From: Nitrospirota bacterium | GTDB taxonomy: Bacteria > Nitrospirota > Thermodesulfovibrionia > Thermodesulfovibrionales > UBA6898 | Reading direction: 5' to 3' | Assembly: GCA_021814475.1 (NCBI GenBank) | Contig: JAKAIE010000029.1 | Location: 1-36,370, forward strand | Length of the DNA: 36,370 bases | Program-made: the position numbers and the translations under genes | Shown: positions 4,134 to 23,899 of the stretch, piece by piece | Layout of the letters: every line of letters starts with the position of its first letter | Numbering within the stretch: position 1 is the first letter of the stretch | The notes under the pieces: model-generated | Seen by the model: the letters and a program-made list of their open reading frames with translations, nothing else | Database searches by the model: none | What the model was told of the DNA's origin: nothing

Positions 4134-5255
4134 ATGGACGACGTAGACTTATTGCGCGAAATACAGGAATTGAGGGAACGCCTCAGAAACCTGGAGCTGT
4201 CAGAAGAGAAGAGGTTATCCGCGGCAGAGCAGTTGCGTGTTCCCGAATACAAAATACGGTCGGCGGAGGACAGGAAGCCCTACGGAGAGGAGCCCCTTTC
4301 CCTGGAGTTGACGCTCGGCACGAGCGGCAGGATGAGGGAGGTTATCGACCAGATACGCCGGATTGCAAAGACGGATTTAACCGTCCTGCTCCAGGGAGAA
4401 ACAGGCGTGGGCAAGTCATTTATTGCCGACATTATCCATAGGTTAAGTCCCCGCGCAGATAATCCTTTTATTAAAATCGATATGGGGACTATACCGGAAA
4501 CCCTCATGGAAAGCGAACTTTTCGGCTACGAGAAAGGCGCCTTCACAGGAGCCGACAGAAGAAGGAAAGGCATGTTCGAACTCGCCGCGAACAGAGGGAC
4601 CATATTTATCGATGAACTCGAAAACATGACCGCCTATGCCCAGAGCAGGTTCCTGACAGTCATCGAGGAAAAGAAGTTCCATCCGCTGGGCAGCTCCGAA
4701 ACAAGGGACCTGGATATCCGCATCATCTCCGCGACGAACAGGGAAATGAAAGAGGCGCTGGAAGGGAAAAGTATCAGAAGGGACCTGTTTTACCGCCTGA
4801 GTGAATTCATAATCACGATCCCGCCCCTGAGAGAGAGGGTTGACGATATTCCTCTCCTGGCGCAGAAATTTCTTGCTGAGGCAGAAACCAAGCTCAATGC
4901 ACCTGTCAAGAAATTCAGTGACGCGATATTTGATGTCCTCAAAAAATATCCGTGGCCGGGGAATGTCAGGGAATTAAGAAATATTGTGATGAGAAGGGCC
5001 GTGCTCATGTCCCAGGTCCATTCAATTAAGCCCGGGGATATGGAGCTCTTACTCTCCGATACGCCCCGGAGCACTGAATCTTGCGAGCTTCTGCCCCTTA
5101 AGGAACTTACCGCCATGGCGGTAAGAGATGTTGAAAAGAAGGCGATCCGTAAAGCCCTGGAACTCACAAAGGGCAACAAGTCGAAGGCGGCGACTATTCT
5201 GAAGGTCAATTACAAGACTCTCCTCATAAAGATCAGGGAATACAATCTCTCCTGA
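4134..5255 (+). CDS. sigma-54-dependent transcriptional activator without receiver domain
   Basis: A 373-residue bacterial enhancer-binding protein that uses ATP to open promoters held by RNA polymerase with sigma-54. The first 60 residues are short, charged and probably coiled (LLREIQELRERLRNLELSEE); there is no receiver, GAF or PAS domain. The AAA+ domain has Walker A GETGVGKS (88-95), the sigma-54 contact loop GAFTGA (135-140), Walker B GTIFIDE (155-161), the arginine-finger region RRDLFYRL (215-222) and WPGNVRELRN (274-283). A Fis-type helix-turn-helix closes the protein (about 347-370). The start has a GGGAG site five bases upstream. Three sigma-54 promoter candidates within 2 kb make motAB, the kinase pair and the following gene likely targets. 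Confidence 0.92.
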   Translation: MDDVDLLREIQELRERLRNLELSEEKRLSAAEQLRVPEYKIRSAEDRKPYGEEPLSLELTLGTSGRMREVIDQIRRIAKTDLTVLLQGETGVGKSFIADIIHRLSPRADNPFIKIDMGTIPETLMESELFGYEKGAFTGADRRRKGMFELAANRGTIFIDELENMTAYAQSRFLTVIEEKKFHPLGSSETRDLDIRIISATNREMKEALEGKSIRRDLFYRLSEFIITIPPLRERVDDIPLLAQKFLAEAETKLNAPVKKFSDAIFDVLKKYPWPGNVRELRNIVMRRAVLMSQVHSIKPGDMELLLSDTPRSTESCELLPLKELTAMAVRDVEKKAIRKALELTKGNKSKAATILKVNYKTLLIKIREYNLS

Positions 5256-8034: not shown

Positions 8035-9798
8035 ATGAGTTACCTTGTATTAGCGAGAAAATGGCGGCCCAAAGGCTTCGACGACCTTGTAGGCCAGGCG
8101 CCGATCATGCGTATCCTCACAAACGCGATCACCCAGGGGAAGATCGCCCATGCCTATATCTTTTCCGGGCCACGAGGCGTCGGCAAGACATCCTCCGCGC
8201 GCATCCTCGCCAAGGCCCTGAACTGCACCGGGGGACCGACCCCGACACCCTGCGGCGCCTGCGCTTCATGCCTGTCCATCGCAGACGGGTCTTCCGTCGA
8301 CGTGATCGAGATAGACGGCGCATCGAACAACAGCGTTGACGACATCCGCGACCTCAGGGAGAGGGTAAAATACGCCCCGTCTTCCGGCAGATACAAGGTC
8401 TACATCATCGACGAGGTCCATATGCTCTCCGGTTCGGCCTTCAACGCCCTGCTGAAGACACTGGAAGAACCCCCTCCGCACGTCATATTTGTCCTCGCAA
8501 CGACCGAGATGAAAAAAATACCGGCAACGGTCCTTTCCCGCTGCCAACACATGCCGTTCAGGCGTATTTCGTCGAATGAGATCAGGCAGCGCCTGAAACA
8601 TATCTCCGATGCCGAAGGAATCATAATATCTCCTCCGGCCCTCGGCCTGGTCGCGCGGGCGGCGGACGGCAGCATGCGCGACTCACTGACGATCCTCGAC
8701 CAGATATCCTCTTTCTCTGCCGAGATCTCCGAACAGGATGTCAAGAACCTTCTCGGCATTACCGACTTCGGCCTGCTCGCCGCAACGGCGCAGGCCCTGA
8801 TCACCGGGGACCGGGCCGCGCTGCTAGATACGGTCAATCACCTGACCGAACAGGGGACCGACATCCGCGCCTTCACCCGGGAACTTGTCCAGTTTTTCAG
8901 GGACCTCCTGGTGGCAAGCGTGGTAAAGAAACCTGAAGAGGTGCTCGACCTCGGAGAGGACGAACTTCGTGCGGTGAAGGATCTCACCGCCCTCGCGGGT
9001 GAAGACCAGCTGACACTGATGCTGTCCGAGATCATGAAGACGGAGGCCGATATCCGCTTTGCGTCATCGCCCAGACTTGCGCTCGAGATGGCACTGATCA
9101 AGGCAAGCTTCCTGAGCGTCATGAAACCGGTCAAGGAGGTTCTCGACAGACTGGCCGGGCTCCAGGGCGACGCTTCTCCGGCGCCCCGCCAGAAGAAGAC
9201 GACGACACACCCCATTGCCGCGCCGGCGCCTGAAGTCGTGACCACTGTACGGCAGGAAAGGCCTGCCCCGGCTGCAGTCGAACAGTGGGAGACGGCCTCG
9301 GCCGGAGTTCAGGAGATGGCGGATGCCGCATCCGCAGGGGTTTCAGATCCTTCGCCTGCAGAAGTGCAGGAAGAGAAGACCTTCCCCCCTGCCGCCGCGC
9401 CCCCGTCGGGAACAGAAGGAAACCTTGCCGCCTCATGGGACCATCTGCTGTCAACGGTCGCCCCGCCGCTCGCCTCAAAGCTGTCCCAGACGCACTACGA
9501 ACTGAAAGGCGATGAACTGTTTCTGACACTAAACGGCGGTCACGCGGTCTTCGAGGATTCCCTCCAGGAGAATGCAAAAGAGATCCAGCATACCCTTGCC
9601 GCAGCATATGGACAGAAGCTGAGGATAAAGATAGGCACGGCCCCGAAGAGGGCTGGAAAAAAGAAAAGCGACCTGAAGGAGACGGTCATGCAGGAGCCCC
9701 TGATCAAGGAGGCGCTTGAGCTGTTTGACGGACGGATCGTCGATGTGACGTCCGTCGAAACCGAGAATATTTCAAACAATGGAGGAGACAATGTCTAA
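8035..9798 (+). CDS. dnaX: DNA polymerase III subunit gamma/tau
   Basis: Clamp-loader ATPase of the replicative polymerase, 587 residues. Walker A is GPRGVGKTS (45-53), and the zinc-binding cysteines are C64, C73, C76 and C79. The Walker B region IIDEVHML is at 124-131 and the SRC motif at 168-170. An Ala/Pro-rich linker at about 370-480 is followed by a tau-type C-terminal region. No ribosome site is obvious before the ATG. The gene overlaps the ybaB start by eight bases, and recR follows, giving the classical dnaX-ybaB-recR operon behind the SRP RNA gene. A slippery A AAA AAG heptamer in the correct phase lies near the 3' end. Confidence 0.95.
   Translation: MSYLVLARKWRPKGFDDLVGQAPIMRILTNAITQGKIAHAYIFSGPRGVGKTSSARILAKALNCTGGPTPTPCGACASCLSIADGSSVDVIEIDGASNNSVDDIRDLRERVKYAPSSGRYKVYIIDEVHMLSGSAFNALLKTLEEPPPHVIFVLATTEMKKIPATVLSRCQHMPFRRISSNEIRQRLKHISDAEGIIISPPALGLVARAADGSMRDSLTILDQISSFSAEISEQDVKNLLGITDFGLLAATAQALITGDRAALLDTVNHLTEQGTDIRAFTRELVQFFRDLLVASVVKKPEEVLDLGEDELRAVKDLTALAGEDQLTLMLSEIMKTEADIRFASSPRLALEMALIKASFLSVMKPVKEVLDRLAGLQGDASPAPRQKKTTTHPIAAPAPEVVTTVRQERPAPAAVEQWETASAGVQEMADAASAGVSDPSPAEVQEEKTFPPAAAPPSGTEGNLAASWDHLLSTVAPPLASKLSQTHYELKGDELFLTLNGGHAVFEDSLQENAKEIQHTLAAAYGQKLRIKIGTAPKRAGKKKSDLKETVMQEPLIKEALELFDGRIVDVTSVETENISNNGGDNV
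9657..9663 (+). other. slippery heptamer A AAA AAG in dnaX (frameshift candidate)
   Basis: The zero-frame codons are GGA AAA AAG, the phase required for a -1 shift and the same heptamer used in E. coli dnaX. A purine-rich AAGAGGG lies a few bases upstream. A -1 shift after codon 543 would add 18 codons and stop at 9719, giving a product of about 561 residues with a different tail rather than a short gamma. Function is inferred. Confidence 0.35.
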
Positions 9799-10132
9799 GA
9801 AGATGCTCGGGGACCTGATGCGTCAGGCCCAGAAACTGCAGGAGGATATGCAGAAGACCCAGGAGGAGGCAAAAAAGAAGACCGCCGAGGCGACGGCAGG
9901 AGGCGGCATGATCACCGTCGTGGCGAGCGGGGCCGGCGAACTCGTCTCGATAAAGATCGAGAAGGATGTGGTGAATCCCGACGACGTCGAGATGCTCCAG
10001 GACCTGATCCTTGCGGCTGCCAACGAGGCGATCCGCCGGGCGCAGGAAATTGTGAACGACGAGATGTCGAAGCTGACCGGTGGCCTGCAGCTTCCGGGCA
10101 TGGGCGGCCTCGGGAATATCTTCGGGAGATAG
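9791..10132 (+). CDS. ybaB: YbaB/EbfC family nucleoid-associated protein
   Basis: A small dimeric DNA-binding protein of 113 residues, found almost always between dnaX and recR. It has the typical N-terminal charged helix (MRQAQKLQEDMQKTQEEAKK), the small beta region with GGGMITVVASGAGELVSIKI, and a C-terminal helix ending in a glycine-rich tail (LPGMGGLGNIFGR). The ATG at 9791 is preferred over the one at 9779 because GGAGG stands five bases before it, inside the longer reading. The start overlaps the dnaX end by eight bases and the stop shares one base with the recR GTG. Confidence 0.92.
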   Translation: MSKKMLGDLMRQAQKLQEDMQKTQEEAKKKTAEATAGGGMITVVASGAGELVSIKIEKDVVNPDDVEMLQDLILAAANEAIRRAQEIVNDEMSKLTGGLQLPGMGGLGNIFGR

Positions 10133-10734
10133 TGTCCCGGGTAATGCACGGCATCATTGAAGACCTGATCAACGAACTGACCCGCCTGCCCGGCATCGGG
10201 CGGAAGACGGCGCAGAGACTGGCTTTCTTTATCCTTTCCATGCCGTCGGACGAGGCCCTCTCGATCGCAGGCGCGATCCAGAGGGTGAAGGAGAAGGCGA
10301 GGTTCTGCAGCCGCTGTTTCAATATTACGGAAGAGGAACTCTGCAATATCTGCAGCGACCCGTCCCGGGACCAGTCCAGGATCTGCGTTGTTGAAGAGCC
10401 GAGCAACATCCTAGTCATCGAGCGGGTGAAGGGCATGAACTGCCTGTACCATGTCCTCCTCGGCGCGCTCTCTCCGATCGACGGCATCACGCCCGACAAA
10501 CTGAAGATCCACGAACTGATCGCACGGGTAAGAGAAGGAGGGATCAGCGAAGTGATCCTGGCCACAAATCCGAACACCAAAGGAGAGATCACGGCTCAGT
10601 ATATCCGGGAGGCCCTCGCCCCCTCAGGTGTAAAGGTGACAAGGATCGCTTACGGGCTGCCTATGGGCAGCGATATAGAATTTGCCGACGAGGTGACCCT
10701 GGGCAGGGCATTGGAAGGCAGACGGGAGCTATAA
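10132..10734 (+). CDS. recR: recombination protein RecR
   Basis: RecR works with RecF/RecO to load RecA at gaps in DNA. The 200-residue protein shows the helix-hairpin-helix (LTRLPGIGRKTAQRLAFF), the four-cysteine zinc finger (CSRC ... CNIC), the Toprim domain beginning ICVVEEPSNILVIE, and the C-terminal motif ATNPNTKGEITAQYI with GLPMGSDIEFADEVTL. The GTG start shares one base with the ybaB stop; an ATG four codons later (10144) would also fit the family. It is the last gene before the CRISPR array, which is transcribed towards it. Confidence 0.95.
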   Translation: MSRVMHGIIEDLINELTRLPGIGRKTAQRLAFFILSMPSDEALSIAGAIQRVKEKARFCSRCFNITEEELCNICSDPSRDQSRICVVEEPSNILVIERVKGMNCLYHVLLGALSPIDGITPDKLKIHELIARVREGGISEVILATNPNTKGEITAQYIREALAPSGVKVTRIAYGLPMGSDIEFADEVTLGRALEGRREL

Positions 10735-10825
10735 AAACCGCCTGTTTCTTCCCCTGCCTCGTGCTGCGTGACCGACTTGCCTGCCAGAAGCATTACAAAA
10801 CCGCGCCCTGGAACATATGATATCG

Positions 10826-12562
10826 CCTTCCTTGACCGCTCCTGCGGGGAACATTGTGGCAAATGGAATCTACCCTGTGGAATGGGCGGTTCATCCCTGC
10901 TCGTGCGGGGAACATATTGCCCTGTTCAGTTTGTCAGATCTCATTTTCGGTTCATCCCCGCTCGTGCGGGGAACATATTGCGGCGCGGCCTGGCGTCGGA
11001 AAGAGCGCCGGTTCATCCCCGCTCGTGCGGGGAACATTGTCCTATTGCGCCCGGCCAGATACATGGACGCGGTTCATCCCCGCTCGTGCGGGGAACATAA
11101 GGGGGCGATGAACAGCAACACGGTTTTCTTCGGTTCATCCCCGCTCGTGCGGGGAACATGCGGGGCGCAACCTGGAGTGTTGCAGGCTGGCCGGTTCATC
11201 CCCGCTCGTGCGGGGAACATTGATGCGGCTGCGCGTTCCGAGCTTTCATCAGCGGTTCATCCCCGCTCGTGCGGGGAACATGCATAGACACAGATGCACT
11301 GTAGCACCCCGGTTGGTTCATCCCCGCTCGTGCGGGGAACATGGGTTCGGTTTCAAAACTGTACTGGGGTTAGCCGGTTCATCCCCGCTCGTGCGGGGAA
11401 CATGCAGGGTTCTACACCCCCGAAGAGGTGCAGGACGGTTCATCCCCGCTCGTGCGGGGAACATGATATCACGAGGCCTTCCACAGTGTCCAAGAGCGGT
11501 TCATCCCCGCTCGTGCGGGGAACATGCCGCAGCCGCCTCGAATCTGTCTATATCGGACGGTTCATCCCCGCTCGTGCGGGGAACATAAGGATATTAAATC
11601 ATCTACGGACAAATCTATCGGTTCATCCCCGCTCGTGCGGGGAACATACCCCGTCATACCAGTTCGATATCTGGACAAGCGGTTCATCCCCGCTCGTGCG
11701 GGGAACATGGGGCGCTGGCGGTTATGCCCAGAGCGGGGAACGGTTCATCCCCGCTCGTGCGGGGAACATCTCGATGGAGGAAGGAAATGGTTTATTGCAG
11801 ACGGTTCATCCCCGCTCGTGCGGGGAACATTGGGTCAGGAAGCAGTCAGGAATATGGAATTGCGGTTCATCCCCGCTCGTGCGGGGAACATGCAAATCCT
11901 CCCACCGTAACCCCTCGGGGTTACGGTTCATCCCCGCTCGTGCGGGGAACATGGCTATCACGTTGGAATCGTACATGCCCCGATCGGTTCATCCCCGCTC
12001 GTGCGGGGAACATATCTTTCAGCCAGCAGAAAATAAACGCTAAGACGGTTCATCCCCGCTCGTGCGGGGAACATCCTCGTGCTGATGCTCTGCCAGTATC
12101 CAGCCGCGGTTCATCCCCGCTCGTGCGGGGAACATCCAGAAGGTCATGTCAGGCTTCAGCTTTTTCACGGTTCATCCCCGCTCGTGCGGGGAACATGGCA
12201 TCACTACGCCCTGTGCCAGTTTCTCGCCCGGTTCATCCCCGCTCGTGCGGGGAACATAGCATCCCAGTGATGGCGACCAGCGGAACCCGCGGTTCATCCC
12301 CGCTCGTGCGGGGAACATATGCCCCTTAACTTTGCAGCCCAGCTCAACGGCGGTTCATCCCCGCTCGTGCGGGGAACATAGGACGTCGGGCAGGGGCTTA
12401 CTGTGTGGGAGCGGTTCATCCCCGCTCGTGCGGGGAACATGCCGAGATAAGTCTCCGAAACCCCTGTTTTTGCGGTTCATCCCCGCTCGTGCGGGGAACA
12501 TGGATTGATGCGATGCTAGACCTCATCAAGATACGGTTCATCCCCGCTCGTGCGGGGAACAT
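10826..12562 (-). CRISPR. type I-E CRISPR array, 29 repeats and 28 spacers
   Basis: Repeat unit 29 bases, spacers 32 bases; every period from 10854 to 12562 is exactly 61. In transcribed (minus) sense the repeat starts ATGTTCCCCGC and ends GGGGATGAACCG, with a CCCCGC/GCGGGG stem and an ACGA loop, typical of I-E repeats cut by Cas6e. The direction is set by the AT-rich leader next to cas2 at the right end and by decay at the left end. The last repeat (10826-10854) keeps only part of the consensus and the second to last (10887-10915) has one change that breaks a stem pair. All others are identical except one, where the terminal base differs (11314). Open reading frames across the array are artefacts of the repeat. 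Confidence 0.98.
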
Positions 12563-12637
12563 ACTTCTTATAACTTACTGATTTATAAGTCCATTTTCAA
12601 AGAACTGAAATTTACCGACACTAACTTACAAATTTCT
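12563..12637 (-). promoter_or_regulatory. CRISPR leader
   Basis: The 75 bases between the cas2 stop and the first repeat are strongly AT-rich, unlike the surroundings. Minus-strand reading gives a possible -10 TATAAA near 12583-12590 without a clear -35. A perfect 7-base inverted repeat (CTTATAA at 12567-12573, TTATAAG at 12583-12589) lies five bases from the first repeat, and AACTTAC occurs twice (12572 and 12623). Leaders of this kind carry the array promoter and direct Cas1-Cas2 integration. Confidence 0.75.
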
Positions 12638-13838
<1,201 letters not shown>

Positions 13839-13839
13839 C

Positions 13840-14103
13840 TCAGTGGCTGTGAGCTTCGACGTATTTGCGCAAGACCGCATTTATAGTCGACTGGTAACCC
13901 CGTCCCTGCTTTTTGAAGAATTCAATCACATCGGGATCGAGCCGAAGAGTTATCTGCTTCTTTGTGCCAGGCCAGAGAACGGCCTTTTTGAAAAAATCGT
14001 CGGTCAATTCCGGAATATCCGACGTGTCAATATCTTCATCTTTCATAGCCTTAAGGCGAGCCCAGTCAGTCTTTGAACGCCGTTTGATATCTTTCCCTTT
14101 CAT
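13840..14103 (-). CDS. brnA: BrnA-type antitoxin
   Basis: An 87-residue protein of the BrnA family, which neutralises BrnT and, as a ribbon-helix-helix protein, represses its own operon. Seen are the charged N-terminus, the family segment DTSDIPELTDDFFKKAVLWPG, and the DNA-binding region ITLRLDPDVIEFFKKQGRGY with STINAVLRKYV at the end. It overlaps the upstream toxin gene by 38 bases (toxin first, as in known brnTA operons). Its TGA is followed after one base by the ATG of cas1. That makes an antitoxin message that must be translated just before cas1. Confidence 0.9.
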   Translation of the reverse strand: MKGKDIKRRSKTDWARLKAMKDEDIDTSDIPELTDDFFKKAVLWPGTKKQITLRLDPDVIEFFKKQGRGYQSTINAVLRKYVEAHSH

Positions 14104-14347
14104 GTTTCTTTGCCTTTCTCATAGATATTACGCGAATTGTATCCGTCCCTCTCTCAACAAATACCATGATGACAACCATCATATCATTCATCATGCCAAT
14201 GCCGATATACCGGTCCTCATCATAATCGAACCGGTCGTCGTGCCAGGTGACCAACGGATGCTCGAAAAGCTGCCACGCATCGGCAAAATCAATTCCGTGC
14301 TTCCTGATATTCGCCTTATTCTTCGCTTCGTCCCATTGCAGTTTCAT
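14066..14347 (-). CDS. brnT: BrnT-type toxin (ribonuclease)
   Basis: A 93-residue BrnT family toxin; characterised members are RelE-fold ribonucleases that stop translation. The family marks are present: WDEAKNKANIRKHGIDFADA near the N-terminus, DEDRYIGIG in the middle and IRVISMRKAKKHERERY at the end, containing the R-x-I-S-x-R segment tied to catalysis. It starts 39 bases after the cas6e stop. A TATAAT lies four bases before the ATG with no clear -35. The pair is intact, so it should be active. Its composition is more AT-rich than cas1 or cas5e, which hints at a separate origin. Confidence 0.9.
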   Translation of the reverse strand: MKLQWDEAKNKANIRKHGIDFADAWQLFEHPLVTWHDDRFDYDEDRYIGIGMMNDMMVVIMVFVERGTDTIRVISMRKAKKHERERYQTAFKD

Positions 14348-14351
14348 CTAT

Positions 14352-14357
14352 ATTATA
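14352..14357 (-). promoter_or_regulatory. -10 box candidate inside the cas operon, before brnT
   Basis: A perfect TATAAT in minus-strand reading, four bases before the brnT ATG, in the only sizeable gap between genes of the operon (14348-14386). No good -35 is present, so an internal promoter for brnTA-cas1-cas2 is possible but weakly supported. If used, the mRNA would be leaderless. Confidence 0.3.
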
Positions 14358-14386
14358 ACTCCATTTGTAGTTACAGCGGAAGTGCA

Positions 14387-15265
14387 TTACAGCCGCCGCA
14401 CAAGCATCAGGCCGCAGCCGAAGGCTTTGGCGGGGCCGATGCCGGCGTTCAACGCTTTGACAAACAACTCTGCGTCAACGACCTCAATTTCTCCTTCAAA
14501 ATCAACGGAGCTAAAACCGGCATCTCTCCCTTTTCTTGGAAGTGAATGCCATTGATATCCTTCCGCCTGAAACTTCAAACGTCCACTTTCGGCATCTCGA
14601 ACCATGGCAAACCCGAGTCTTTCACTTCTCCCGGCTAACCACGTCTCCAGGGCTTTATCCATCCGGGCCTTCAAGGCGAGATCAAGCAGTTCAAGTGGCT
14701 TCAAGGTTTTAGTCCGCCCTTCTGCAAATCGCTCATTCACAGCTACGACTTCACGAAGCTTTTCTTCCAGGCTACGCAAGTCCAAGAGCTGCCTCCATGC
14801 CTCAATAATCTGTTTCTTGATCTTCGATTTGTCCCCAACAGCCGGAATAGACATATCGGCTGCAATATCCCGTAACAGGTGATATTGAGCGTCCATCACA
14901 ACATCATGGCGCGGAGAGCTTTTCTTCCCCTCCTGTTTACGGGCTATTGTCGGGTTGGCGCGAAGTCTGAACGCCAGACGTACCCCATTGGTAAGCTTCG
15001 GCGAATACGGTTTGGAATCAACCGCAAATATGGGATGATCTGATATTGGGCTGGATTCCGAAACTAGATAAAACAGCGGCTCACCCTTCACCCCCTTATG
15101 AAACGGTATCTGCTCTCTGGCTACTTCTTCCCGAAAAATAAATTGTCGATTTTCGTAGCCTGGAAACAGTTTCCACAGCAACTGATGAGCGCCATAGCCA
15201 TTGCCACTCACGAGCATATGAAGATCGCGCACATCCGGCCTGATTCTTACTCTGGAAAAATACAT
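14387..15265 (-). CDS. cas6e: Cas6e crRNA endonuclease (CasE), enlarged
   Basis: Cuts the repeat hairpins and stays bound to the 3' end of the crRNA in Cascade. Family marks are MYFSRVRIRPD at the start, AHQLLWKLFPG (26-36) with His27 in the place of the catalytic histidine of E. coli CasE, FRLRANPT (99-106), and the C-terminal glycine-rich loop GIGPAKAFGCGLM. The ATG at 15265 is chosen because it has AGGAGG seven bases upstream and shares a base with the cas5e stop (TGATG). The protein is 292 residues against 199 in E. coli. The extra length is mostly a charged helical stretch at about residues 125-205. Confidence 0.93.
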   Translation of the reverse strand: MYFSRVRIRPDVRDLHMLVSGNGYGAHQLLWKLFPGYENRQFIFREEVAREQIPFHKGVKGEPLFYLVSESSPISDHPIFAVDSKPYSPKLTNGVRLAFRLRANPTIARKQEGKKSSPRHDVVMDAQYHLLRDIAADMSIPAVGDKSKIKKQIIEAWRQLLDLRSLEEKLREVVAVNERFAEGRTKTLKPLELLDLALKARMDKALETWLAGRSERLGFAMVRDAESGRLKFQAEGYQWHSLPRKGRDAGFSSVDFEGEIEVVDAELFVKALNAGIGPAKAFGCGLMLVRRL

Positions 15266-16080
15266 CAGCATTCCTCCTTTCCGATGCGCAGGCACTCGGT
15301 GCGTTGGGTAAACTGCCATCTGGCGCGGGAAAGCGGCTGATCATGCCGGACAAGCGTTTGTTGCGGAACAAGATCACCTGCATCACCTTCCCAGTAATAG
15401 CGCACCGGCTGATTTCCATAGCAAAAGACCCGTTCGTCCTCATATGACAAAGCGGTAAGCAGCGGACTTTCACCCGCTTTCGCACCTCCAAGAAGTTCTT
15501 TTTCTGCCTTCTTCAGCAGGTATTTTGAAACGAACAGAGCACCGTACGGATAACTGTCTAATGCTTCGCCAAAACCTGAAGCAGTTCTGATAAGAGGATT
15601 GAGCGGCGCTGCCAAGGGGCAGGACTTGCGCCCGAGATAAAGGTGAAAGCGCGGTTTCAGGAGTGCATCCCGCAGTTCGGCCAATGAATACGGTGCGCCC
15701 TCCTCCGCTGCAACCGCCACCAGATTCAATGAATCGCAGCGGTATTCACGGCTGGAGAGAACTGTGCCGAGACGCTCCTTGCCCATAACCAGCTCATCAC
15801 GGCGGGTACGATAGACAAACTTTCCGACCGAATCCGGCGCCTGGGCGGTGTGATAATCGCGCAACGGATGCCCGGCGCTGATGACCTTGACTGCAAAGCG
15901 GTATCCGGCAGCAAGCGCAGCCTGGCGCTGCTCCTCATCTCTGCGGATGCCGAGACCTGCCGCCAGAAGACCCAATAGGGCCGATTTGCCCGGATAGGAT
16001 GCGGAGTGCCGGGATTCACCCACCGCAATCTCGCCCCAGCTGGCCAACGGACCATACAGGCGAAACAGAAGATATTCCAT
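15265..16080 (-). CDS. cas5e: Cas5e (CasD), Cascade subunit
   Basis: Binds the 5' handle of the crRNA at the foot of Cascade. The 271-residue protein begins LLFRLYGPLASWGEIAVGE, has the SRHSASYPGKSALLGLLAAGLGI block, and continues with DYHTAQAP and VLSSREYRCD, all typical of CasD (E. coli 224 residues). The ATG follows the cas7e stop after 10 bases and has AAGGGGG in good position. It overlaps the cas6e start by one base. The GC content is high, like the flanking chromosome and unlike most of cas7e. Confidence 0.94.
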   Translation of the reverse strand: MEYLLFRLYGPLASWGEIAVGESRHSASYPGKSALLGLLAAGLGIRRDEEQRQAALAAGYRFAVKVISAGHPLRDYHTAQAPDSVGKFVYRTRRDELVMGKERLGTVLSSREYRCDSLNLVAVAAEEGAPYSLAELRDALLKPRFHLYLGRKSCPLAAPLNPLIRTASGFGEALDSYPYGALFVSKYLLKKAEKELLGGAKAGESPLLTALSYEDERVFCYGNQPVRYYWEGDAGDLVPQQTLVRHDQPLSRARWQFTQRTECLRIGKEEC

Positions 16081-16090
16081 GATCGCCCCC

Positions 16091-17665
16091 TTATTCGGCT
16101 ACAAATGTCAAAAGCTCTGCCAATGTCCCTTTACCCTCGAAAACATTGAGTTCACAGGATGCATCGGCACAGGTGCCATAGACGGCATCCATGTTCTTGC
16201 GCTGCGTGGTCAGGGCCTCCACCGCTGCAGTGCCAAAGTCAGTGCCTTCGATTCCCTGACTGGTAACCGGCTTGAGAAAGGCCACAGAAAGGGAGCGGGG
16301 CTGCTGATCCCCCTTTTCCGCAAGGACATAGCTTGCATAGGCGCGGCTGCCAAAGCTGTTTTGCTTCCCTTCAGGGGCCACCTTTACTGCCGCCTCAATC
16401 AAGGCTTTGATGGCTTTTTGAGCTAACTCCTCATCCCCGCCAAGATTATCGACCAGCAACGCCCGGTTGATACAGATGTATGAATAGAAGAGCCCTGCGG
16501 CAAAACCGGTTTCGCCGATGTGGGCCGCTCCGGCATCGTTTCGGTACTGGTTCATTTCTTCGACAGCCGTAAAATAATCGTCTTCAATTACAACAGGATG
16601 AACGCTTATGGCATGAGCAACTTGGCAGGCAGCTTCCACGTTATAATCGACTGAAGATGCCAACATTCTCCCAAATAATGAAATATCAGCGTTGGTATTT
16701 TCGTTTGTTAAGATCGCTGACCTAGGAATTGCAGTACGAGAGATAGCAACTGATAGATTTTCTATATTCGCCTCCGAAAGATAATCGTCGTCATCAGATT
16801 TCTTTACCTCATCTATCCAGTTTAAAAGTTGTTCTTCCCAGCCTTTACATAATTCGGCGTGATCTTTGAATTTCAGTTCCCCGTAAGTAATGTCCCTGGC
16901 ATTTTTCCCTGACAATAAGGTGCCGAGAGAAAGCTTCTTGACAATATCCTTAGCAAGCTTCACGTATTCATCTGCAAAGAAAAGCTCAAGCTGATCATCA
17001 CGGATTTCCGTATCTCCAATAACAGCGTCGAGCCATTCAGAGCTGTTATCAATCATCTTAATGAGAAAGTCATATTGGCTCTTGTCCTCTGCATTTTTGT
17101 ATTTCTTTACTATTTCCTTTAAGGCTTTTGCCCAGTCCTCTTTCAGCATCGCTACGGGGTGTCCGCCTTTCAGAATACTTAGGAGTTCATTTACAGAGGA
17201 GGATATGTCTTGCGAAAGAATTTCAAACAATTTGACGCCCAAAGTATTTGATTCTTCAGTAGCACCACCCAATCCTTTTTCAAAACGAGCGATCACATTG
17301 CTGATATTTTGCCGTTCCTTGTCGGACACAAATGCGAGTGTCTCTAACTCCATGGAATTGCCTTTAAGTTTTCCAAATTTACGCGCGATATTTTTCGCAA
17401 TTTCCTCTCGATCGGTCCGGCTTAATGTAGGAAATGCCGACAATTTCTCAAACGCATCAAGCCCAATCATCTTCGTTCTGATGCCTTTTGCAATTGCTGC
17501 TTCAAAGATATCCGAAGACCGCCATGCTCTTTTCAAGCTTTGCGAGGAAATACGCAAACGGTCAAAACCACCCATTTTTGCTGTCTTAGGGCGGCCTTGA
17601 TCGTCACGGTTCAGATTAGCCGGAGGGTAGGATGTCAAGAGATGTATTTGTACGAAACGGTTCAT
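16091..17665 (-). CDS. cas7e: Cas7e (CasC), Cascade backbone subunit with large insertion
   Basis: Six copies of Cas7e normally form the crRNA-binding backbone of Cascade. Typical segments are IHLLTSYPPANLNRDD (7-22), GGFDRLRISSQSLKRAWR (32-49), SLFGRMLAS (329-337), VAHAISVHPV (349-358) and GAAHIGETGFAAGLFY further on. The protein is 524 residues, against 363 in E. coli. The excess lies between SLKRAWR and SLFGRM: about 277 residues here, about 115 in E. coli, which is the helical fingers region. The insert is rich in Lys, Glu and Asp and predicted helical. The frame is intact. The start overlaps the cas11e stop (ATGA). The first two thirds of the gene are AT-rich, the last third is not. Confidence 0.93.
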   Translation of the reverse strand: MNRFVQIHLLTSYPPANLNRDDQGRPKTAKMGGFDRLRISSQSLKRAWRSSDIFEAAIAKGIRTKMIGLDAFEKLSAFPTLSRTDREEIAKNIARKFGKLKGNSMELETLAFVSDKERQNISNVIARFEKGLGGATEESNTLGVKLFEILSQDISSSVNELLSILKGGHPVAMLKEDWAKALKEIVKKYKNAEDKSQYDFLIKMIDNSSEWLDAVIGDTEIRDDQLELFFADEYVKLAKDIVKKLSLGTLLSGKNARDITYGELKFKDHAELCKGWEEQLLNWIDEVKKSDDDDYLSEANIENLSVAISRTAIPRSAILTNENTNADISLFGRMLASSVDYNVEAACQVAHAISVHPVVIEDDYFTAVEEMNQYRNDAGAAHIGETGFAAGLFYSYICINRALLVDNLGGDEELAQKAIKALIEAAVKVAPEGKQNSFGSRAYASYVLAEKGDQQPRSLSVAFLKPVTSQGIEGTDFGTAAVEALTTQRKNMDAVYGTCADASCELNVFEGKGTLAELLTFVAE

Positions 17666-18261
17666 GGTGTGCTTCCTCCTTTGGTGTTTGATTTAGGTTG
17701 TCTTTTTAAAAGGGTGCGGTAGTAATCATTAGCCCAACAGAAGGCAAGCCGCTCTTGCGGATTGCGGTCAACTCCCCTTTGATACTCGTGTATCCAGTGC
17801 AGAACATCATTTACAAGGGATAAAATGTTAACTTTACCTTCCAGCATCTTTACAGCTCGCAGCAGACGTCGGTAAAACTCGCTTGGATCGTGGCTTTTCT
17901 GTAATTGGCGAAAACGAAGTTCGCTCATGAACGGTTTATCGCTACCAGTTTTTGCAGTTGCCAACTGTTCCGCAAAACTCTTGCCGTCATTATGTTCTTT
18001 TACATGCGATACTATTGCAGCTGTCAATGCAGATGCGGGCAACCTCTTAGGTTCTGACCACGCCTCCGGCATGTTCTGCAAAAAATGGTAAAAAGCCTCC
18101 GTTAAAAGAACGTCATCCGGACTATCGACTCTCCTCAAGCGGGCGCGATCACCGCGACCGTGATTCTTTTTAAACCGCGCCTTACTTCCGTCCAGCCAAT
18201 TCCACCATTCCAGTAACTTGTCGCGAGTTTCTGAGTCGTTAAGAAATTGATATTGTTCCAT
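17662..18261 (-). CDS. cas11e: Cas11e (CasB, Cse2), Cascade small subunit
   Basis: Helical small subunit, two copies of which line the belly of Cascade and steady the target DNA. The 199-residue protein (E. coli 160) has the family patterns LLEWWNWLDGSKARF, RARLRRVDSPDDVLLTEAFY and MSELRFRQLQKS. The basic residues that contact DNA are plentiful. The ATG has AAAGGAGG upstream and lies 23 bases inside cas8e. The gene is AT-rich throughout, in line with the neighbouring halves of cas8e and cas7e. Confidence 0.92.
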   Translation of the reverse strand: MEQYQFLNDSETRDKLLEWWNWLDGSKARFKKNHGRGDRARLRRVDSPDDVLLTEAFYHFLQNMPEAWSEPKRLPASALTAAIVSHVKEHNDGKSFAEQLATAKTGSDKPFMSELRFRQLQKSHDPSEFYRRLLRAVKMLEGKVNILSLVNDVLHWIHEYQRGVDRNPQERLAFCWANDYYRTLLKRQPKSNTKGGSTP

Positions 18262-19855
18262 TAGCCCCCTCCTTTACCGGTATAGCTTTTGCGCTTATCA
18301 GTTTCATTGATTTACATTCACGAATCTGTTTTTTCAGCTTGTCGCGTTCTTCAATAACACGTTTCATATCCATATCCTCTATAGAAGACTCCAGAACCCA
18401 GACATCGAAGAGATCCAAGGATAACGAGGCGAGCCTATTTCCCCACTTTGCATAAAGTTCAGGTGGCGGTTCATCCTGCTCACTCGGCAAATTTGATAAT
18501 GTATTCAACAATTCATAAAAAACAGATTCGCTACGCTGCCAGAAATCTATAACTACTGGGATAATCTCTGACTTTATGTCTTTGGCATCCTTCGGACGCC
18601 TGAACCATGCTGCTTTGACCTGTTTACGTAAATTAATACTGACGTCTTTGGCAGCAGTGATCAGCTCATCCGCCCACTGCAACAGTTTTCTCCTCAGCTT
18701 TGGATCAAGGTTGAAAAGCGGAAAGGTGTGATCATACCAGCAACGGGCTTTCATGTTGTCCATGTCAAAACCGAAGCACCAGAGCCGGGCAGTCCGTTGC
18801 ATTCTCAGTTCTGGCGCCCGTTGTTCCGAATACCGCCTGACGATCTTGGCGGCAGAATAGCCGTTATTATTGTCCGCAAGAGTCAAAGACAACCAATCTC
18901 GATATCCTAAACCACCTTCTTGCCCCTTTCCTGAGCGTGGTGGCTTTTCCTTCTTAGGGTCAAAGTAATACGGGGTCAAAGAATGCACCCACTCACCAAC
19001 ATAATTTACGCCATAGTTACGGGTCCGGTAGTCCTCCACGAGTGCCACATTTACGGCTTCGCACAGATCGCAATCACCAATGTTGGTCTTACGGGGAAAG
19101 TCCAGTCTTATCCGGCGAGGCATCCCCCAATAGGCCTGGAGGAGGTGGACGTTTCCCGGTGTGGTTTCCGTGCCGTTCTTTTCCGAAGTGCGCGTCGGTC
19201 CCATCCAGGGGAAGACAGCCGCAACCCGATCCTGGCTGTATTCCGGCATATCCTCATGATCAAGGACATTCAGCCAAAGCGTCTGCCAGAGCGGAAGTTT
19301 TTCCGGCGGCAAGACCAGAGTAGTCAATGGACCGCCACCGCGCAACCCGACCCGGTGACCAACTCCACCCGAGGGCGCATTGGTCTGCAGGGTGAAGAGC
19401 GCCATAGCCGCGCAGCTCTTGCAGACACGCTTGACAGTATACCGCTTGACGAAGTGATCCAGGTTGTCCTTGACTGTCTTGCCACCGGGAGCTTCGATAA
19501 GCAGTGCCGCTACCCCCTTCTTTTCTCCATCTGTCATGCTGTAATCCTGCATGAACGCCGGACCTTCGAGTGTATCGAACTCAAAAGCAGTTGCCATCGC
19601 TTGCAGGCGGGCTTGCAACAACGCCGCCTCCGGTGGTTTGTTCCAGTACTCCAACCATTCATCCAGGTCTTCCGGGGCAAAACCGGTTTGCAGCAGCCCG
19701 ATCAGAAACTGGTACATGGCCCCCTGGAAATCCGGCCTTGGCGCAGCCAGCTCCATTACCGGATCTTCCTGTTCCGCAATCTGCCAGGGTGCAATAACAC
19801 CCCGGCCACTCTTTGCCCGGAAAACCGGTATCCAGGCATCTTTAATCAGATTCAT
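18239..19855 (-). CDS. cas8e: Cas8e (CasA, Cse1), Cascade large subunit
   Basis: Large subunit that recognises the PAM and recruits Cas3. The 538-residue protein (E. coli 502) begins NLIKDAWIPVFRAKSGRG and has DFQGAMYQFLIGLLQT. A Cys pair (CKSC) is followed by the glycine-rich loop GGVGHRVGLRGGGPLTTLV, typical of CasA. A four-helix C-terminal region ends the protein. I place the start at the ATG at 19855, which has AAGGAGG six bases upstream, rather than at the TTG two codons earlier. It overlaps cas3 by 14 bases. The last third is AT-rich compared with the first two thirds. Confidence 0.93.
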   Translation of the reverse strand: MNLIKDAWIPVFRAKSGRGVIAPWQIAEQEDPVMELAAPRPDFQGAMYQFLIGLLQTGFAPEDLDEWLEYWNKPPEAALLQARLQAMATAFEFDTLEGPAFMQDYSMTDGEKKGVAALLIEAPGGKTVKDNLDHFVKRYTVKRVCKSCAAMALFTLQTNAPSGGVGHRVGLRGGGPLTTLVLPPEKLPLWQTLWLNVLDHEDMPEYSQDRVAAVFPWMGPTRTSEKNGTETTPGNVHLLQAYWGMPRRIRLDFPRKTNIGDCDLCEAVNVALVEDYRTRNYGVNYVGEWVHSLTPYYFDPKKEKPPRSGKGQEGGLGYRDWLSLTLADNNNGYSAAKIVRRYSEQRAPELRMQRTARLWCFGFDMDNMKARCWYDHTFPLFNLDPKLRRKLLQWADELITAAKDVSINLRKQVKAAWFRRPKDAKDIKSEIIPVVIDFWQRSESVFYELLNTLSNLPSEQDEPPPELYAKWGNRLASLSLDLFDVWVLESSIEDMDMKRVIEERDKLKKQIRECKSMKLISAKAIPVKEGANGTISIS

Positions 19856-22571
19856 CGGCAACCTCCTTCTGGATTCCCCAGCCCATCAGTTTGTCGTACC
19901 AGCTCGACAGCTCCGCAGTTAGCGGAAACAGTTCGACCCATTTCAATGCTTTCACCTCTTCCTTGAACATCTCCAACGAACTTAGCAGGTCCGCCGGTAT
20001 CGCCTTTCTGGCCTTGAGCCAGCTGTTTTTCGGCACACCAACCATGCTCATGTCCCAGGCAAAGCTATCGACATCCGCATAGGAAAGCCAGCTGTCGCCA
20101 TTAGCACGCACCAGCGCCACCCGTACCGTGTCCTCACCCAAGCGGGTCGGAATTTTCGCTTCTTCTTCCCAACCGCCGGAATCTTCCGCGCTTGTCCGTG
20201 AATATCCCTTAGCAAGTTTCAGGGCATTCATTCGGGCGACTCCTGACTTTGCATAGGCATCGGCAAGAGCCTTGAAGCTCAGTTCTTGAAGTGCGGCTGG
20301 TATTCCGTCCTGTGCTTCTTCGGCATAAACGCCCTCAATCAATCCCCGTGCATCACCCGGCATGCTCAGCTTGCCCGCCGGACCAAGCAACTGCTGCGTC
20401 AACCACAACTGCCCCACATTTTGATAGACTTTCTGTGTGCCCGGCAAGACAGCCTTCAACCAGTTTTCCGCCGGATCTTCGTTTGCCGCTGGCCCAAAGA
20501 TATAAAAAACTGGCGTTTCCCGTTTATCGACTGCGCCTTCATGCGTCAGCCGCGTTCCATCTGCATCGCGGATATGCCGATGTTCACGCCCCATGCGCTG
20601 GATAAGCAGATCAATCGGGGCAAGGTCGGAGATCATCAGGTCAAAGTCCAGATCAAGCGACTGCTCCACTACCTGAGTAGCTATCAGCACCCGTCCCCGT
20701 CGCATCTCAGGGGTTGATCCCTTGCCAAAGAAGTTCAAGGTTTCCGACTCGATCCGCTGCCGGTCGATCATGGCAAAGCGGCTGTGAAAAAGGGAAAGCC
20801 GTTCCTTCTCCAGCCACTCTTGACGTGCCAGCAGACGATAGGTTTTGATGGCGTCGCCAACCGTGTTGCGCACCCAGCAGACGCACCGCCCCTGTTCCAC
20901 CGCCTGCCGGATACGGTCCAACACGTCATCGGAGTTATCAAGAAGCGCCACAGACACGGTGCGCTCCACCTCGCGTCGGGTGGCCAAGGCCGTTTCGAGC
21001 TGTTCCTGAGAGGGGAAATGCGTTGCCAGCGGATACTGTTCCGTCGCTTTCAATGTCGGAGCTTCCGTGCCAGCACCCCTGCAGAAGGCTTGCAGATACT
21101 GGTTGCGCATTTCGAGCGGTAAAGTAGCTGAAAGGAGAATGACACTACCACCCTGGGCGGCATGGTATTCAAGCAGCGTCTGCAACAACTTGTTCATATA
21201 GGGGTCGAAACTATGGACCTCATCGACAATCAGAAGCTTTCGGGCCAACCCCAGACAGCGCAGGGATTGATGTCTTGCGGGCAACACTGCCAACAAAGCT
21301 TGATCCAGTGTGCCGACACCGACCTCGGCCAGAAGCGCCTTCTTGCGGCTGTCAGCCAGCCAGGCGCTGCACACCGCCTCTATAGTTTCTTCGTCGAGAT
21401 CATATTTCCTTGATTCACTCGTATCAGGCAAAGAAAGCGATTTCCGGAACGCCTCAGACAGATGCCGTGCGCCATGCGCCAACACCAGTGAAGGTAGAGC
21501 ATCATCTGCGTACATCCGACGATAGGCCTTGCCCAGACGCTCATACATGGCATTGGAGGTTGCCATGGTCGGGAGTGCCACATACAACCCTTCCGCAAGA
21601 CCGCCTGCCATCAGACGATGCGCCAGGGTCAGCGCTGCCTCAGTCTTGCCGGCGCCGGTGACATCTTCAAGTATGAACAACTGGTTACCGGAAGTCAGTT
21701 CAACGCTTTCGGCCCACTGTTGCAAGGGGGTCAGTTCAGTGATGAACTTGAACAGATGGCGCGTATTCTGGTAAGGAGCTACGAAAGAGGGTTCCAGTCG
21801 TGCATTTGCAACTACCTTTGCGGCAAACGGCAAAGCATGGTTGTGCCAGTAGTCATCAAGAGAAATTTTCTGCTGGCAGAACCCATCAGTTGTACGGCTG
21901 GAGCCGAGCCAATCCGCCAGCACCACAATTCCGGCCAGAATCCAGGATGCATTCTTCAGACGCTTACAAAACTCCTTATCAACCCGAATATCAATCATCT
22001 CTGCAGTGATAAACATTCTGGAAGTTTCAAGAATGTACTGCCAGGCAGCGTCAATGTCTTGTTTATCAAAGTGTTGGGATAGATAAAGACCCGAGATTTT
22101 GGGTGGGATACCATGGTGCCCGGTAACTATCTGCATCCAGACATCAAGCGCTCTGCCAAGCTGCTTCGGGTTAGTGTTCTTTGCGAGCCAGGTATCTTCC
22201 ATTCCAAGCCGCTCACGCAGACCGTCTTCATCGCTCCAGAGGCAGAACCCAAGGGAGTCATGGCGCTCAGTGTAGCGTTTTCGTTCATTGGGTTCAATTA
22301 GATCAGAAGCCATACCAGGAACCAATCCTTGAAAAGCAACCGCGAATTTGCCGATGTCATGAAGACAAAGAAAGAAGGCGAACAGGCGCCGCAGGAGATT
22401 AGGCACGATATTCAATTGCCGTGATAGGCGGTGGCAAAGTGGCTTGTCTGGATCAAGCAGCAGCCAGCCCACCCCCGCCACATCCAAACAATGATAAGGC
22501 AGCAGATGATATCCCGCCCCATCCTTTTCCGCCTTTCCCCAATATCTGAAATACGACGCGGGTTCTTTCAT
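19842..22571 (-). CDS. cas3: Cas3 nuclease-helicase, type I-E
   Basis: Recruited by Cascade to nick, unwind and degrade target DNA. The 909-residue protein has an N-terminal HD nuclease domain with His71-Asp72 (CLHDIGKF), GHHG (151-154) and LADWLG (218-223). A superfamily 2 helicase follows, with Walker A VTGAGKT (304-310), DEVH (450-453), SAT (481-483) and the motif VI segment QRMGREHRH. All catalytic elements look intact; length in E. coli is 888. It is the first gene of the cas operon. The 110 bases upstream hold a REP palindrome and an AT-rich stretch in which I see no convincing promoter. The ribosome site is weak. Confidence 0.96.
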   Translation of the reverse strand: MKEPASYFRYWGKAEKDGAGYHLLPYHCLDVAGVGWLLLDPDKPLCHRLSRQLNIVPNLLRRLFAFFLCLHDIGKFAVAFQGLVPGMASDLIEPNERKRYTERHDSLGFCLWSDEDGLRERLGMEDTWLAKNTNPKQLGRALDVWMQIVTGHHGIPPKISGLYLSQHFDKQDIDAAWQYILETSRMFITAEMIDIRVDKEFCKRLKNASWILAGIVVLADWLGSSRTTDGFCQQKISLDDYWHNHALPFAAKVVANARLEPSFVAPYQNTRHLFKFITELTPLQQWAESVELTSGNQLFILEDVTGAGKTEAALTLAHRLMAGGLAEGLYVALPTMATSNAMYERLGKAYRRMYADDALPSLVLAHGARHLSEAFRKSLSLPDTSESRKYDLDEETIEAVCSAWLADSRKKALLAEVGVGTLDQALLAVLPARHQSLRCLGLARKLLIVDEVHSFDPYMNKLLQTLLEYHAAQGGSVILLSATLPLEMRNQYLQAFCRGAGTEAPTLKATEQYPLATHFPSQEQLETALATRREVERTVSVALLDNSDDVLDRIRQAVEQGRCVCWVRNTVGDAIKTYRLLARQEWLEKERLSLFHSRFAMIDRQRIESETLNFFGKGSTPEMRRGRVLIATQVVEQSLDLDFDLMISDLAPIDLLIQRMGREHRHIRDADGTRLTHEGAVDKRETPVFYIFGPAANEDPAENWLKAVLPGTQKVYQNVGQLWLTQQLLGPAGKLSMPGDARGLIEGVYAEEAQDGIPAALQELSFKALADAYAKSGVARMNALKLAKGYSRTSAEDSGGWEEEAKIPTRLGEDTVRVALVRANGDSWLSYADVDSFAWDMSMVGVPKNSWLKARKAIPADLLSSLEMFKEEVKALKWVELFPLTAELSSWYDKLMGWGIQKEVADESD

Positions 22572-22659
22572 GGTTTTTTCATTTCTCTTTTACATTCTTC
22601 CAAAGCCAATCTCCCACATCCTCGAAATCGATTAAAATACCGCAAAAATACAACAAGCA

Positions 22660-22690
22660 AGGGGCGAGGCACCGCCTCGCCCCTACAACA
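22660..22690. repeat. REP palindrome between cas3 and the RAYT gene
   Basis: Perfect 10-base arms GGGGCGAGGC and GCCTCGCCCC around ACC, followed by TACAACA. On the minus strand the stem is preceded by GTAG, the tetranucleotide typical of REP elements bound by RAYT transposases. The same 31 bases recur exactly at 23019-23049, inside the RAYT gene. It overlaps the last codons of that gene. Confidence 0.8.
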
Positions 22691-23333
22691 ATGACAACGG
22701 GTTATTCGGATGTTCTTTGTCATCTGACCACCTCGACGGGTTATTAATGATGTAATCCCTGATGCGGTCCAATTCTTTCTCGTTGCGTATGATGCGCTCA
22801 TAATAATTGCGCTGCCAGACCGGAACGCCCGATACGTTGCGCAAACGGTTTATGCGTTTGGTGGTTATCGATTTGAATTGCCCGATAATCGATCCGACCG
22901 ATCCCGCCGCCACCGTAGGGGCGACCCGGTGGGTCGCCCTGTTTCCGCCGGTCGCCCGGCCTTCGTTGGTCTCCCCGTCTTCGCCGTTCCCGGAAATCCC
23001 GGGTTCCGTACCACCGAAAGGGGCGAGGCACCGCCTCGCCCCTACAACAGAAATGGGGTGGATATCGTTGATAACCATTATGCCGTGGAAATGATTGGGC
23101 ATGACGACATATGCATCCAGATCGACCGTTGTCCTCACGACAGCTGTGCGCAGCCATTCACCGGCAACAATACGCCCATATTCATTCAACCCCATCTCCC
23201 CATCGGCAATATCGCCCAGAATACATTCCCTGCCCTGTATGCAGATCGTCACAAAATACGCCCCTTCCCGCGTATAATCGAATCCTTTGAGACGAACTGA
23301 ACGACGATGGCGCAGGGCAGCATCGTATATCAT
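22683..23333 (-). CDS. REP-associated tyrosine transposase (RAYT, Y1/IS200-like)
   Basis: Single-strand-specific HUH transposase of the domesticated RAYT type, thought to process REP elements. The 216-residue protein begins MIYDAALRHRRSVRLKGFDY, has the metal-binding MPNHFHGIM (His81 and His83) and the tyrosine region QRNYYERIIRN (Tyr177/178) with IRDYIINNP. I place the start at 23333, where ATGA overlaps the exonuclease stop and the family similarity begins. Residues about 95-140, between the HUH motif and GQFKSITTKRIN, are encoded by a REP pair and are not conserved in the fold. No terminal repeats of an insertion sequence were found, in keeping with a single-copy RAYT. Confidence 0.88.
   Translation of the reverse strand: MIYDAALRHRRSVRLKGFDYTREGAYFVTICIQGRECILGDIADGEMGLNEYGRIVAGEWLRTAVVRTTVDLDAYVVMPNHFHGIMVINDIHPISVVGARRCLAPFGGTEPGISGNGEDGETNEGRATGGNRATHRVAPTVAAGSVGSIIGQFKSITTKRINRLRNVSGVPVWQRNYYERIIRNEKELDRIRDYIINNPSRWSDDKEHPNNPLSLL
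22915..23049. repeat. inverted REP pair (BIME-like) inside the RAYT coding region
   Basis: Two REP palindromes face each other. At 22915-22940, GTAG is followed on the plus strand by 9-base arms GGGCGACCC and GGGTCGCCC around GGT. At 23019-23049 the other copy has its GTAG on the minus strand, with arms GGGGCGAGGC and GCCTCGCCCC. The 78 bases between are GC-rich with further short palindromes. The whole is read in frame as part of the transposase. Confidence 0.75.
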
Positions 23334-23899
23334 CTGCCCATGATCTCCCTCCATATCTCCGCCACCATTTTGGCATCACACAGCGCCCGGTGGGCCTGTC
23401 GAAATTCCTGATAATTCCCGAACAGGGCGCGATAAACTGTCTCCAGTCGGTAGTTGCACAGACGGGGGAGCCGTGTCCTGCTTGCTTCGAGGGTGCAGAT
23501 ATAGCGGTTGGTGAAAGCCAGTCCGAGGCGGGCGAATTCATACCTGAGAAATCCTATGTCAAAAGGGGCATTGTGTGCCAAAAGAATGCTGTTGCCGATG
23601 AATTCTCTGAAGCTTGGCAATACATCCTCTGCCCCGGGCTGATCAGCCAGCATATCACCCGTTATACCGTGAACCAGGCGCGCCTTCGCAGAGATGCGTT
23701 TTCGCACTTTGATCAGACTCTGAAATCCCCGCTCATCTTCCCCGTCGGACAACTTTACCGCCCCGATCTCTATCACCCTGTCTCCCCGATGGGGCATAAG
23801 GCCGGTTGTCTCAACATCGATCGCGATAAATTCGCCGGAGAAGTCATTTAACGTTTCGCCGTTGGCGAACAGATTATGGAAGCCTTTTTGAATCCCCGT
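23330..23899 (-). CDS. DnaQ-like 3'-5' exonuclease (DEDDh), start codon unusual
   Basis: Exonuclease of the DnaQ/epsilon type, perhaps for proofreading or RNA/DNA trimming. The ExoI motif is FIAIDVETTGL, the ExoII region LLAHNAPFDIGFLRYEF, and the ExoIII region HRALCDAKMVAEIW with the DEDDh histidine. The first ATG (23797) lies after the ExoI motif, so it cannot be the real start. The frame is open upstream to a TAG, with no ATG, GTG or TTG. A strong AGGAGG (23908-23913) stands eight bases before an in-frame ACG at 23899, which I take as the likely start. ATT at 23893 and CTG at 23872 are alternatives. The stop overlaps the RAYT start by four bases. Confidence 0.75.
   Translation of the reverse strand, partial: TGIQKGFHNLFANGETLNDFSGEFIAIDVETTGLMPHRGDRVIEIGAVKLSDGEDERGFQSLIKVRKRISAKARLVHGITGDMLADQPGAEDVLPSFREFIGNSILLAHNAPFDIGFLRYEFARLGLAFTNRYICTLEASRTRLPRLCNYRLETVYRALFGNYQEFRQAHRALCDAKMVAEIWREIMGR

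Follow-up and report, generated by a model that had tools for sequence, protein, structure and literature searches.

A BrnT/BrnA toxin-antitoxin pair occupies an exchangeable slot between cas6e and cas1 in a Nitrospirota type I-E CRISPR-Cas operon

The type I-E cas operon of this Nitrospirota bacterium carries an intact brnT-brnA toxin-antitoxin pair at an exact position, from the stop codon of cas6e to the start of cas1, where most of its relatives carry some other guest gene and where these guests are exchanged rapidly. On balance, and with modest confidence, we read brnTA as the current occupant of this exchangeable slot, in which it would control its own expression and act, coupled to cas1-cas2, as a module for addiction or backup. 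The original prediction had treated the pair as a special feature of this I-E locus, which is too narrow a reading.

The window, by which we mean the whole 36,370-nucleotide stretch analysed, contains a complete type I-E locus (cas3-cse1-cse2-cas7-cas5-cas6e-cas1e-cas2e plus array) as judged by Pfam and NCBIfam, and the NCBIfam models for Cas1e, Cas2e, Cse3, Cse4 and Cse1 type the operon as I-E (Table 1). The gene order on the minus strand is cas3, cas8e, cse2, cas7, cas5, cas6e, brnT, brnA, cas1 and cas2, followed by the CRISPR array. As predicted, brnTA is intact and shares its strand with the core genes of the defence operon that flank it, which is the arrangement that defines an embedded gene. 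BrnT and BrnA both match their Pfam families over their full lengths and above the cut-offs, and BrnT matched two solved structures, PDB 7vd7 (E=7e-16) and the BrnT structure 3u97 (E=5e-12). The two reading frames overlap by 38 nt, and the genes of an annotated brnTA on a Chroococcidiopsis plasmid overlap likewise. The brnA stop codon (13840-13842) is separated by 1 nt from the cas1 ATG (13836-13838), in agreement with the predicted spacing, and this cas1 start at 13838 (MTEPILPP) is the one common to homologues.

Table 1. Coordinates of the type I-E locus and of the brnTA pair in the window.
Feature	Coordinates	Strand	Evidence or description
cas3	19842..22571	-	TIGR01587/TIGR01596
cas8e/cse1	18239..19861	-	TIGR02547
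cse2/cas11	17662..18261	-	PF09485
cas7e, unusually long, 524 aa	16091..17665	-	PF09344, TIGR01869
cas5e	15265..16080	-	PF09704
cas6e	14387..15319	-	PF08798/TIGR01907
cas6e stop to brnT start gap, 39 nt, left slot edge	14348..14386	-	sequence
brnTA leader TGTAACTACAAATGGAGTTATAAT, putative promoter/operator	14352..14375	-	TAACT-N8-AGTTA inverted repeat overlapping TATAAT box
brnT, toxin, BECR-fold ribonuclease family, 93 aa	14066..14347	-	PF04365 E=2.5e-26
brnA, antitoxin, C-terminal ribbon-helix-helix domain, 87 aa	13840..14103	-	PF14384 E=1e-18
cas1e, right slot edge	12915..13838	-	TIGR03638 E=6e-116
cas2e	12638..12934	-	TIGR01873 E=4e-34
CRISPR array, ~29 repeats of 29 nt, CGGTTCATCCCCGCTCGTGCGGGGAACAT, period 61 bp	10824..12564	strand not assigned	

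We gathered relatives of this locus by their Cas1 from whole genomes and from 84,980 species genomes, the survey outside Nitrospirota being the best 80 loci of a longer candidate list. After duplicates were removed, there were 82 loci with Cas1 at least 77% identical, and the 79 scorable ones came from Nitrospirota, Desulfobacterota, Geobacterales and other taxa. A recognised guest was present between the last effector gene and cas1 in 58 of the 79: BRO (21 loci), DUF1016/YhcG (12), RhuM (6), Fic (6), four-helix-bundle (5), REP-associated transposase (RAYT; 3), BrnTA (2), ParE-RHH (2) and MNT-HEPN (1, sitting behind an orphan brnA). Four loci were scored as unidentified and 17 as having no guest; with so many loci lacking a recognisable one, no guest is needed. 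Families were assigned with Pfam on representatives, except that the transposase label was given by eye and the Fic label is based on Fic_N plus the SoFic model; some twelve ambiguous loci were assigned manually. Full-length genes make up most of the guests, and the few fragments were scored under their own family. For most slot guests there was also a PADLOC match (BRO, PDC-S13; DUF1016, PDC-S02; RhuM, PDC-S05; SoFic/S04; also PDC-S09), whereas neither BrnT nor BrnA was matched by PADLOC, which is without a BrnTA model. Some slots hold several guests, namely BRO with RhuM (L051), Fic with RhuM (L106), and a Fic fragment with BRO and a four-helix bundle (L094).

The interruption is confined to this one joint. 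Gaps of more than 250 bp separate the last effector gene from cas1 in 56 of 74 loci and occur at none of the 148 other effector joints (cas7-cas5, 0/74; cas5-cas6e, 0/53; cas6e-cas7, 0/21), and in those close relatives that were checked, cas1 overlaps cas2. E. coli-type operons had been predicted to be empty here, and in E. coli K-12 casE and cas1 are indeed 15 nt apart with nothing between them. In Cas1 lineages further away (74-76% and ~45% identity), the last effector gene mostly adjoins cas1, with gaps of about 21 bp in a Nitrospira-like group; one locus with 74% Cas1 identity (L118) has a Phd-PIN pair in the joint. As anticipated, brnTA is not a standard part of I-E loci: it was found in 2 of the 79 scorable loci, with an orphan brnA in one more. 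A conserved brnTA linkage, which the prediction had also raised, was not seen among these loci, and it is the position that is conserved instead. Nor is the pair confined to this strain with relatives joined directly, the outcome named beforehand as refuting the idea, since most relatives hold something at the joint and BrnTA is present independently in a second locus, L046.

The same joint is occupied in other CRISPR subtypes. BRO, the commonest guest, is also found in I-C and I-B loci where effector and adaptation genes meet. In one I-C locus (L178), BRO lies directly before cas1c with cas7c upstream, the BRO stop and the cas1c start sharing 4 nt; in two others (L177 and L197), BRO precedes cas1c behind a four-helix-bundle gene and cas4, and a further I-C locus (L190) has BRO/PDC-S13 at this joint. 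The I-B locus of Arcobacter cloacae (L131, NZ_CP053834.1) has BRO between cas4 and cas1b. Beyond CRISPR, RhuM (PDC-S05) is found between hsdM and hsdS in type I restriction-modification (R-M) systems. In L179, L181 and L183, other cas operons begin with BRO, immediately followed by cas3.

Guests are exchanged rapidly. A tree of 92 loci built from Cas1 DNA needs at least 46 changes of guest label (11 would be the minimum and 55 is the shuffled mean), two of them for the two BrnTA loci, so that BrnTA entered at least twice. Three loci with 97% Cas1 identity hold BrnTA (L046), BRO (L049) and DUF1016 (L054), and Fic (L048) and RhuM (L051) are found in loci whose Cas1 is 97% and cas6e 92% identical. 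The borders are sharp in the comparison of L046 with L049: Cas1 is 97%, cas5 88% and cas6e 79% identical, DNA homology stops at the cas6e stop and restarts at the cas1 ATG, and the DNA between is unrelated. Effector cassettes are also swapped, as Cas1 can be 97% identical while cas5/cas6e are near 30%. The last ~57 nt of cas6e (14387-14444, the GIGPAKAFGCGL region) are common to loci whose remaining cas6e is only ~30% identical as protein, and such cas6e tails persist as relics in some loci with a different effector cassette or gene order. In L048, the Fic gene is flanked by N- and C-terminal BRO scraps. Guest identity agreed with that of the nearest cas6e neighbour in 8 of 43 cases, compared with 8.0 after shuffling; linkage of guest to lineage was not above shuffles for cas5 or cas6e and was weak for cas1. 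The slot of L061 contains a relic of the cas1 N terminus (at about -821..-426 relative to cas1), which is likely to be a trace of unequal recombination.

We compared the window pair with other BrnTA pairs by identity, because a BrnA tree was too short for slot versus free copies. The window pair is 85% (BrnA) and 69% (BrnT) identical to a free-standing brnTA (G020), and 78% and ~50% identical, respectively, to the slot pair of L046. The window pair being closer to the free-standing pair than to the other slot pair points to separate arrivals. The slot copies of BrnA differ by a dN of about 0.10-0.16 with dS above 1.3 or saturated, a pattern that, at the level of sequence, indicates purifying selection. 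In L082 (about 4940-5255, G061:C7), an intact brnA stands behind the leader and a brnT relic of ~10 codons, and the MNT-HEPN pair follows; as the toxin gene is deleted here and the antitoxin gene retained, the toxin is dispensable. Among the best 30 BrnA loci of the phylum, 3 adjoin these cas genes and 27 are not near them, from which we take BrnTA to be ordinarily independent of CRISPR and not tied to it specifically. Two further distant BrnT-like proteins (28-34% identity) are encoded elsewhere in the same genome. A C-terminal brnA fragment (G003:C76:35199-35369; L173 4203-4367) lies ~1.7 kb upstream of the cas3 of a related I-E locus whose slot is now occupied by DUF1016.

The pair brings its own upstream DNA with it. 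A 24-bp leader before brnT, TGTARCTACAAWTGGAGTTATMAT, is kept in the window and L046, in the relic of L082 and in the free-standing pair of G020, and more weakly in G104. Its inverted repeat overlapping TATAAT suggests a putative BrnA-controlled promoter/operator travelling with the module. The consensus promoter scan missed this leader, and the sites that it did report were at chance level only. No second copy of a brnTA-type leader was found elsewhere in the window, including at cas3 (0.01 expected), and no terminator-like site was found between cas6e and cas1. As brnTA carries its own conserved leader, BrnA control of cas1-cas2 is plausible; as the leader is equally conserved in brnTA unlinked to cas genes, it serves brnTA.

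The predicted coupling of cas1 translation to brnA held up in part. No AGGA, GGAG or GAGG lies upstream of the window cas1 start, and this lack of a Shine-Dalgarno-type motif makes coupling plausible. Such coupling would not be specific to BrnA, however, because the guest stop codon falls within -5..+12 of the cas1 start for BRO (15/21), DUF1016 (9/11) and RhuM (4/6) alike, and it is absent in the other BrnTA locus, L046, where about 31 nt separate the end of brnA from cas1. The cas1 gene begins ATGAC in 48 of 78 loci, a start that gives a +1-frame TGA stop, and the tight spacing of guest and cas1 may be a simple effect of this start.

Combined with what is known of the two families (PMC11980606), this anatomy suggests how the module could work. 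BrnT would be an mRNA-cutting RNase kept in check by BrnA, and the two together would repress the module's own promoter in the 39-nt leader. Transcripts from the leader, together with read-through from cas6e, would run on into cas1-cas2, and cas1 would be translated by coupling to brnA. If the locus were interrupted, silenced or shut off, labile BrnA would fall before BrnT and the cell would arrest, so that the addiction or backup module would both ride on and stabilise the joint between interference and adaptation. By analogy, BRO, DUF1016, RhuM, Fic, MNT-HEPN and ParE-RHH would be embedded genes with a defence or toxin function. A bolder version, which we put forward tentatively as one we rather doubt, is that type I loci (I-E, and also I-C and I-B, where these guests recur) have at their effector/adaptation joint a dedicated docking site for cas1-coupled toxin or abortive-infection guards or backups, with BrnTA one of about ten cartridges.

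The main rival to brnTA as an addiction or backup module holds that the slot is a neutral or selfish landing site: it would be the only joint at which an insertion spares every cas gene, small modules would collect there by recombination, and BrnTA would persist by its own addiction without serving CRISPR. This is possible, although we lean against it. The very fast turnover of mutually unrelated guests, their independence of the effector cassette (the 8 of 43 matches given above), the relics and the double or triple guests, the RAYT transposases among them and the usually free-standing life of BrnTA are all what such a site would produce. Against it, the guests form a narrow, non-random set of defence- or toxin-like genes; full-length genes prevail among them, the BRO family turns up again at this joint in I-C and I-B loci, and no other joint of these operons is interrupted.

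The remaining explanations fare worse. We consider it improbable that brnTA is a regulatory cassette, in which a BrnA-controlled leader promoter drives cas1-cas2 and stress that removes BrnA raises spacer acquisition. The conserved promoter/operator-like leader directly upstream, the 1-nt spacing to a cas1 that lacks a Shine-Dalgarno motif and the lack of a terminator-like site between cas6e and cas1 in the scan would suit it, but the conservation of the leader away from cas genes, its single copy in the window and the lack of coupling in L046 would not. Very improbable is an RNA guard like CreTA, in which Cascade and a repeat-derived RNA repress a toxin. CreTA modules guard type I loci (PMC9458426, PMC10097628), and so likewise tie a toxin-antitoxin to cas genes; CreTA, however, is an RNA toxin with a crRNA-like antitoxin needing Cascade, whereas toxin and antitoxin here are both proteins and no such elements were found in the window slot. 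The best candidate for a CreTA-like repeat in the slot had 14/29 matches, below the shuffled mean of 15.2, and was rejected. An assembly artefact might be suspected of a metagenome-derived genome in 136 contigs with many relatives that are MAGs, but its probability is close to nil: the joint is also filled in assemblies made independently and in the cultured strains Geobacter argillaceus (L072) and Geotalea toluenoxydans (L074), and L046 has the same pair in the same place.

Payne et al. (bioRxiv 2024) reportedly defined the PDC families of embedded defence genes through 'guilt-by-embedding'. PMC12988326 and PMC12255303 describe these families, as defence candidates found in this way. Like them, the slot guests mostly match PADLOC families and are tightly packed inside another defence operon; unlike them, their host is the type I effector/adaptation joint, with one exact exchange site and rapid swapping, and BrnTA has no PDC model. 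PMC12255303 also describes a type I R-M system with DarTG2 inserted between its hsdS and hsdR genes, on an island whose phage resistance was shown experimentally. DarTG2 resembles brnTA as a toxin-antitoxin pair inside a defence operon, and its site is a suspected recombination hot spot, but its host is an R-M system and its toxin belongs to another family. The PrrC anticodon nuclease is encoded within type Ic hsd loci and guards that defence operon. PrrC is thus likewise a toxin gene inside a defence operon, but a single-gene toxin with an R-M host and a known trigger. The type II BrnT/BrnA system of Brucella abortus, the family as described in PMC11980606, shares with the window pair the toxin-first order, overlapping genes, BrnT/BrnA Pfam domains, an RHH antitoxin and, putatively, an operator-like leader; the window pair differs in lying inside a cas operon, 1 nt before cas1.

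The embedding of defence genes is already known; what is new is a fixed site of exchange where effector and adaptation genes meet. In the titles, abstracts and excerpts of the literature searched, on BrnT and I-E loci, on RhuM and hsd, and on Bro-N and cas1, we found no description of the slot or of an exact, much-recycled site of exchange between interference and adaptation genes. Its position offers a way to find guard or backup modules, and nature supplies closely related loci that differ mainly in their guest (L046 and L049, L052 and L068, L048 and L051), which suit direct tests of addiction, backup defence and the regulation of spacer acquisition.

Three other observations concern the operon and its surroundings. 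The window Cas7e has 524 aa compared with 363 aa in E. coli CasC, and its family matches are split around an insertion, so the protein may carry an extra internal region (16091-17665). The end of the CRISPR array adjoins a dnaX-ybaB-recR housekeeping cluster (window 8035-12564). Just upstream of cas3 (window 22659-23354), REP-like palindromic repeats flank a Y1-transposase-like gene of the RAYT type, and a transposase of the same kind also occupies the slot in some Geobacterales.
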